Origin: Flavobacterium aerium
Lineage (GTDB): Bacteria; Bacteroidota; Bacteroidia; Flavobacteriales; Flavobacteriaceae
DNA: 64,000 nucleotides
Assembly: GCF_030766725.1 (NCBI RefSeq)
Contig: NZ_JARQWR010000002.1
Location: 248,001-312,000, forward strand
Direction of reading: 5' to 3'
Position numbers and translations under genes: made by a program
Shown here: positions 23,287-24,445 of the stretch, in pieces
Layout: each line of letters opens with the position of its first letter
Position numbering within the stretch: the stretch's first letter is position 1
Notes under the pieces: generated by a model
Told to the model about the DNA's origin: nothing
The model's input: only the letters and a program-made list of their open reading frames with translations
Database searches by the model: none

Positions 23287-23294
23287 GGGAATAA

Positions 23295-23327
23295 AAAAAA
23301 GGAAGCTATTAAGCTTCCTTTTTTTTT
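23295..23327. terminator. Bidirectional intrinsic terminator after the barrel gene
   Basis: AAAAAGGAAGCT pairs with AGCTTCCTTTTT around ATTA. A-run and T-run on either side allow use on both strands, including for the minus-strand islet ending at 23326. Confidence 0.9.
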
Positions 23328-23427
23328 AAAGCTCTTGTTGAGCTTCTCTTCTTTTTTGTCTTTTCTCTTTGATTAATTCAATGATAGATCCGCCCAACCA
23401 ATATTGAACGAAACCTACTAAAAATAT
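23326..23427 (-). pseudogene. 3' fragment of a second copy of the small membrane protein gene
   Basis: On the minus strand this codes IFLVGFVQYWLGGSIIELIK and then EKRQKRREAQQEL and stop. It matches codons 25-45 of the intact gene at 24095-24250 (57 of 63 bases by eye), but codons 1-24 are missing and the sequence before it is the 3' end of the lipoprotein gene. The fragment is in the same frame as that gene: after the lipoprotein TAA the frame continues KLIFLVGFV. Five of the six base differences from the complete copy are synonymous, so the two copies diverged while both were functional. Confidence 0.75.
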
Positions 23428-23433
23428 CAGTTT

Positions 23434-24024
23434 TTATTTTTTTAAGCATTTTGTAAATGAACTATATGCATTCCAGCAGTTTGCTGTAAAGTATGTAAAT
23501 GCTTCTGCAGCACATATTGGATTTGTAAAACCATAATAGTTGCAACTTGCAAGACTTACTGCATAATCCATAGAGTTAGCCGCTAGGTCTGATGTATAAG
23601 TACCCCAACAATTATAACCTGCAGTTCTATTTATCTCATAATATACAGCATCAACTTCATTTGATATAGCATCAGTTAGCTGATCTGCAAAATATGAATT
23701 AAATAATCTTTCATCTCCACCATTAGACAGATATTCACTTTTAATGTTTAAATGAGCTTTGGCGATTTTATTTGCAATTTCTTGTTTTTCTTCTTTTGAT
23801 AAATTAGCCGGATCTGAAAAGGGGTCGATTTCAAATGTGTTTTTCCCATTTAAATCGCTGCTTTTTTTGAAAATTAATTTACCAAGCTCTGAAAACTTAT
23901 CAGTTTGGTTTAATTGTGTAGAGTTTAATTTCTCATCGTTATCAGAATTATCATTTGTACATGATACAATTGATAGAAATAACAGAACTAATAAAGAAAA
24001 TGACTTAATTGTAATAGACTTCAT
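23434..24024 (-). CDS. Unrecognised lipoprotein with a cysteine-rich C-terminal region
   Basis: A 196-residue protein with a lipoprotein signal peptide; the lipobox is LSIVSC (C22) followed by the acidic linker TNDNSDNDE, which in Bacteroidota often promotes surface export. The middle is charged and helical (LSKEEKQEIANKIAKAHLNI). The last about 65 residues carry five cysteines (NCWGTY, ASCNYY, NPICAAE, ANCWNAY, TKCLKK) and small/aromatic residues, suggesting a compact disulfide-linked domain. I do not recognise the family. It is embedded between a full and a truncated copy of a small membrane gene, which suggests it was inserted there. Function unknown. Confidence 0.75.
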   Translation of the reverse strand: MKSITIKSFSLLVLLFLSIVSCTNDNSDNDEKLNSTQLNQTDKFSELGKLIFKKSSDLNGKNTFEIDPFSDPANLSKEEKQEIANKIAKAHLNIKSEYLSNGGDERLFNSYFADQLTDAISNEVDAVYYEINRTAGYNCWGTYTSDLAANSMDYAVSLASCNYYGFTNPICAAEAFTYFTANCWNAYSSFTKCLKK

Positions 24025-24094
24025 AATTTATTATATTTATAAGTTAATACTTATAAATATAATAAATTATTACTAACTATTTAATATGATAATA

Positions 24095-24250
24095 CTATTT
24101 AGATCTGTTTTTTCTTTCTTTGATTAATTCAATAATAGATCCACCCAACCAATATTGGACGAAACATACTAGAAATATCATTAACCAAAATCCAATAGTT
24201 AATACTGTCAAGAAAAGCAAAAAGCCTAAATATTGTGTAAATTCAAACAT
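24095..24250 (-). CDS. Small single-helix membrane protein, 51 residues
   Basis: A short reading frame missed by usual length cut-offs. It begins MFEFTQYLGFLLFLTVLTIG, has one or two hydrophobic stretches (residues 8-32), then FVQYWLGGSIIELIKERKN and stop. Strong support for being a real gene comes from the truncated second copy 700 bases away: the shared codons differ almost only at synonymous positions. Related short proteins occur in flavobacteria, but I know no function. Its C-terminal tail (KERKNRSK) differs from that of the other copy (KEKRQKRREAQQEL). It is followed on its strand, after about 70 bases, by the cysteine-rich lipoprotein gene. Confidence 0.75.
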   Translation of the reverse strand: MFEFTQYLGFLLFLTVLTIGFWLMIFLVCFVQYWLGGSIIELIKERKNRSK

Positions 24251-24437
24251 GATTATAAATAATTTAAATACGTGTCAAATATAAGTGGAATATTCATTTT
24301 GACCAATAAAATAGCGAAAATAATTTTTAATTCGTTTTTTAAACCTACATATAATTCATATTTTTGGTCAGCTTTTATGAGAATCCTTTTTTCATTGATT
24401 TTGTTAGTGTAAAAAAGGATGCCACTGCAATCGGGGC

Positions 24438-24445
24438 TATTTTTG
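24438..24445 (+). promoter_or_regulatory. Candidate -7 element of fumC
   Basis: TATTTTTG fits TAnnTTTG and would start RNA near 24451, about 36 bases before the ATG at 24487. It lies downstream of the alternative long start at 24364 and so supports the shorter protein. No -33 TTG at the right distance. Confidence 0.5.

Follow-up and report, generated by a model that had tools for sequence, protein, structure and literature searches.

How did a lipoprotein gene come to lie between a complete and a truncated copy of the same small membrane-protein gene in Flavobacterium aerium, and does this arrangement mark a site at which such cargo is repeatedly received? The locus belongs to a window of 64,000 nucleotides (the whole stretch of DNA analysed here; contig NZ_JARQWR010000002.1, positions 248,001 to 312,000). 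Re-reading the sequence confirmed the coordinates and order given in a first-pass annotation made from the letters alone, namely a full small gene, the lipoprotein gene and a 3' part of the small gene without a start (Table 1). To us the locus looks like the outcome of one gene capture of an ordinary sort rather than a reusable docking site.

Table 1. Features of the locus, in coordinates of the 64-kb window
Feature	Position	Strand	Description
Small membrane-protein gene, full-length	24095..24250	-	51 aa; divergent, with Cys29 and an unusual tail
Orphan lipoprotein gene	23434..24024	-	196 aa; weak matches at most in searches
Remnant (3' part) of the resident small gene	23326..23429	-	Start codon absent; resident-type tail
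Hairpin with T-run directly 3' of the remnant	23293..23326	-	Inverted repeat; by eye, the putative resident terminator
Perfect 22-bp AT-rich inverted repeat	24023..24070	-	Extends into the lipoprotein start codon
Resident promoter region	24251..24364	-	Upstream DNA conserved; leader palindrome TTCCGGAA absent

The two copies of the small gene form a 69-nt repeat of 90% identity (23361-23429 and 24112-24180, an offset of 751), and this 10% divergence argues against an exact duplication of very recent date. Over the 21 shared codons (63 nt) there are six differences, five of them synonymous, as the annotation had counted by eye; a codon test bears this out, with a probability of 0.002-0.012 for at least five of six synonymous differences under random change (transition weights 1-8), and such a result is unlikely to be a chance product of unconstrained change. 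The full copy ends in ERKNRSK, which by alignment is the homologous tail with an early stop. The remnant keeps an open reading frame, with no frameshift and no stop ahead of its own. An intact start in this fragment would speak against the insertion model of the annotation; its sequence holds no in-frame ATG or GTG, and its sole in-frame TTG is internal. It is in the same frame as the lipoprotein ORF and downstream of its TAA, from which the TAA and two codons separate it (23326-23466); readthrough of that TAA would append a hydrophobic tail from the remnant.

Elsewhere in the genus, the small gene is usually found once. The small protein was matched in 82 of 100 genomes; among the 396 genomes of the genus, a profile built on its 3' half found a match in 375 (E<=1e-3, at most 19 candidates scored per genome). 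Both counts include the window genome. The profile matched 326 of the 331 genomes with at least 90% completeness and at most 5% contamination. Two matches were seen in 2 of the 396. One is the window genome; in the other, G046 (87% complete, 3% contaminated), both matches are near full length and lie on two contigs. Among up to 19 candidates scored in each of the 395 other genomes, there was no second case of a full and a partial copy. We also examined 149 further loci, drawn from 148 genomes as the best-scoring places of the small-protein searches, with near relatives over-represented and one locus (L157) misread; none has a partial copy, and short self matches (14-30 nt, E 0.002 or worse) occur in five. 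On one side of the gene, fumC is present in many of these loci, and on the other a receptor gene match starts 44-374 bp past the small gene's stop in 113 of the 149; the remaining 36 (L157 included) show no such match within the DNA read, which spans 1.5 kb or less in seven of them. The window's remnant, about 43 bp from its receptor match, falls at the low end of this range. Where the usual receptor match is missing or more than 240 bp off (42 loci), the first downstream ORF is on the same strand in five, and none of these looks like a lipoprotein by eye, judged from its first 38 residues. The single uninterrupted copies that the annotation had proposed to seek in relatives are present, with conserved neighbours, and lend support to its idea of an event at a resident gene that left the 3' part behind. 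The other cargo genes that it envisaged between a full and a partial copy did not turn up, either in the 395 genomes or in the 149 loci. The small protein itself has no match in NCBIfam or PADLOC, weak ones in Pfam (best E 0.059) and PHROGs (best E 0.024), and none in phage, viral and plasmid collections, where one scan reached close relatives only.

Several comparisons bear on which of the two copies is the resident. The remnant is closer to relatives than the 3' part of the full copy is at 84 of 148 loci, tied at 32 and further at 32, and TGT at codon 29, as in the full copy, is used at none of the 148. Of the six differing codons, the remnant has the commoner version at 27, 29, 31 and 36, and the full copy at 39 (21 v 19) and 45 (85 v 57). 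In a FastTree phylogeny of 130 sequences, both window copies among them, the remnant and the full copy pair together with a support of 0.936, and their branch lengths are near 0 and 0.159 respectively, which places the inferred change on the still-complete copy; the tree and the polarisation of changes both draw on 69 nt of sequence. The remnant, then, is ancestral-like and would seem to be the 3' end of the original resident gene, while the full copy is diverged. Since the two are each other's closest relatives, the newcomer would derive either from a close unsampled lineage or from a duplicate within the lineage. In its 5' half, the full copy is 0.818 identical to the five relatives that are 0.88-0.92 identical to the remnant, as against 0.919 expected from same-bin pairs of relatives (sd 0.044, 5th percentile 0.851), but across all 132 distinct relatives its 5'/3' residual sits at an unexceptional 12th percentile. 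The evidence leans towards replacement of the whole small gene, beyond its 3' part. Codon rarity is not informative about the copies: 17% and 18% of relatives score no higher than the 5' and 3' parts of the full copy, and 60% no higher than the remnant.

Ahead of the full copy, the DNA shares 85-87% identity with the corresponding loci of two relatives (G372 and G150) until 12 bases short of the ATG. Beyond this point, relatives commonly carry the 8-bp palindrome TTCCGGAA, which occurs within 40 bases before the small gene in 111 of 145 loci, always 2-6 bases before the ATG and at 3 bases in 93 of the 111; the exact motif is absent from the other 34, and it occurs 173 times in the 1.3 Mb of relatives' loci. 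The 64-kb window has no occurrence, including at 24251-24265 before the full copy. By eye, the upstream region contains TTATTGG and TATATTTG, which we take to be promoter boxes after the Bacteroidetes consensus. Further upstream, between fumC and the small gene, a sub-threshold match to the Rfam Flavo-1 RNA lies at 24361-24442 (-) (29.9 bits against a gathering score of 42; E 0.0006), in keeping with a flavobacterial origin.

The reading that we favor, at a probability of about one half, is a donor-anchored and in part illegitimate recombination by which the 5' end of the resident gene was replaced. The incoming DNA would have carried a diverged small gene along with the lipoprotein gene, probably from a close unsampled lineage, and would have undergone a single recombination with the resident small gene. 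Of the two joints, one would lie close to the resident promoter, some 12 bases ahead of the start codon, and the other, presumably illegitimate, at codon 24/25 of the resident gene. That gene would thereby have lost its leader and its first 24 codons and had its 3' end displaced downstream, leaving the new gene pair between the resident promoter and the resident terminator, where the two could be co-transcribed and the lipoprotein might bring some benefit. The argument for capture comes from the single copies with conserved neighbors in relatives as opposed to the full and partial copies found solely here; from the sister copies with change on the full one and a remnant closer to relatives; from the low 5'-half identity to the relatives nearest the remnant; and from upstream DNA that is conserved to 12 bases before the ATG, past which the palindrome is absent. 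Homology-facilitated illegitimate recombination expects a displaced remnant of the resident gene beside new DNA, and such a remnant is present. It would also make one joint in homologous DNA and the other without homology; here the upstream DNA is conserved to 12 bases before the ATG and changed beyond, and both joints as placed above are putative. Counting against capture, no donor for either gene emerged from our searches of genomes and of viral, phage and plasmid sets, and sister copies fit a duplicate within the lineage equally. The 5'/3' mismatch and the codon rarity of the full copy are, moreover, unexceptional over all relatives, the tree and polarisation draw on 69 nt, the full copy has the commoner codon at positions 39 and 45, and some relatives also lack the exact palindrome. 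Nothing on this locus appeared among the papers listed by literature searches.

The serious rival, which we nonetheless consider less likely, is duplication within the lineage. In this case the lipoprotein gene would have ended up between the two copies, of which the upstream one diverged under selection and the downstream one recently lost its 5' half by deletion. Copies that are sisters to the exclusion of all sampled species, the predominance of synonymous differences and the conserved upstream DNA all suit it. However, neighboring copies are seen in no relative among the 149 other loci and the 395 other genomes scored (the two of G046 being on separate contigs), change on the retained copy with none on the remnant is the opposite of what a long-standing remnant should show, and the lipoprotein gene would have to be captured separately.

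Some integrative elements enter the 3' end of a gene and restore it, leaving a complete gene at one end and a 3' fragment at the other, much as is seen here. A small circle could likewise have integrated by site-specific or Campbell-type single crossover with the 3' part of the gene as its attachment site, so that the upstream copy would join a resident 5' part to a donor 3' part and the downstream piece would be the resident 3' end. The repeat-cargo-repeat layout is the trace expected of such an integration, but we judge it improbable: the insert has no integrase-like ORF, the lipoprotein being the only sizeable ORF in it read as a gene, and, apart from short matches, it is unrepeated in its own genome. 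Furthermore, the small protein is unmatched in phage, viral and plasmid collections, the same site shows no second use in the 395 other genomes searched, and the full copy, with a tail of its own, appears changed in its leader and 5' half as well (if with a weak overall residual), in contrast to elements of this kind. For a recombinase to account for the locus, help would have to come in trans, which is conceivable, and the 5' half would have had to change. The usual marks of a recombinase-borne integrative element are lacking, as the insert shows no integrase or transposase gene and the site is unused in the relatives searched. Rejected were a repeated mobile unit (IS/MITE), the other matches of the insert in its own genome being 48 bases or shorter, and a viral, phage or plasmid source, neither protein being matched there, though some viral and contig scans reach close relatives only. 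The annotation's suggestion that lipoprotein cargo repeatedly docks at the small gene is scarcely credible and went unsupported, its sole case being the one in the window.

The proposed capture has a partial parallel in Vibrio cholerae, where homology-facilitated illegitimate recombination has been proposed for the insertion of type VI effector/immunity modules (PMC5361080). As proposed in that study, there too a module is anchored on homology and illegitimate at its far end, and the old gene is displaced with its 3' end shifted downstream; the Vibrio case involves a series of events, as against one here, where the displaced gene encodes a small membrane protein and the cargo is a lipoprotein without a known toxin or immunity role.

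The lipoprotein itself shows, by eye, a lipobox-like LSIVSC followed by a D/N-rich stretch and a Cys-rich C-terminus. The Cys and the ensuing polar/acidic stretch (CTNDNSDNDE) recall Bacteroidetes surface lipoproteins with an export signal, for which PMC5080379 gives the F. johnsoniae consensus SDDFE; the protein resembles these motifs without matching that consensus, and the signal is putative. None of the relatives found by sequence search is convincing: there are weak matches in 20 of 397 other genus genomes (E 8e-4 to 0.009), 16 of which begin within the first six residues, and three in a family search of 348 other genomes (E 4e-4 to 1e-3). No match was obtained in phages, plasmids, PADLOC, or viral and genome contigs (the contig scans reaching close relatives only); nothing in Pfam or NCBIfam met a curated cut-off, and PHROGs gave one match at E 0.12. 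Among solved structures, residues 43-91 matched two designed ankyrin proteins (E 3.4e-5 and 5.9e-5), which may merely reflect helical, charged sequence in our judgement; none of the remaining 13 matches was better than E 0.066. A single-sequence model has a mean pLDDT of 45, and a fold search with it, to which we gave no weight, returned no match at E<=0.001.

As for the hairpins, the single copy in relatives also has similar ones after it by eye, and a terminator consensus scan did not list the one 3' of the remnant. The 22-bp inverted repeat before the lipoprotein gene has a folding energy of -23.5 kcal/mol (z -5.2) and is the sole 100% pair among the nine listed with arms of at least 18 nt no more than 60 nt apart. 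It is conceivable, if a long shot, that the captured pair forms a new unit, in which an altered form of the near-universal small protein and an orphan surface lipoprotein are expressed from the resident promoter, the hairpin holds the lipoprotein start and loss of the palindrome has changed regulation.

Finally, the case is real and instructive, and its mechanism ordinary. It argues against the attractive idea of a genus-wide docking site, and instead offers an apparently recent, readable capture of an orphan gene without loss of a conserved one, in which the remnant and its replacement are both still present. It also draws attention to a small membrane protein, uncharacterised so far, that is single-copy in most sampled genomes of the genus and has a conserved leader palindrome.
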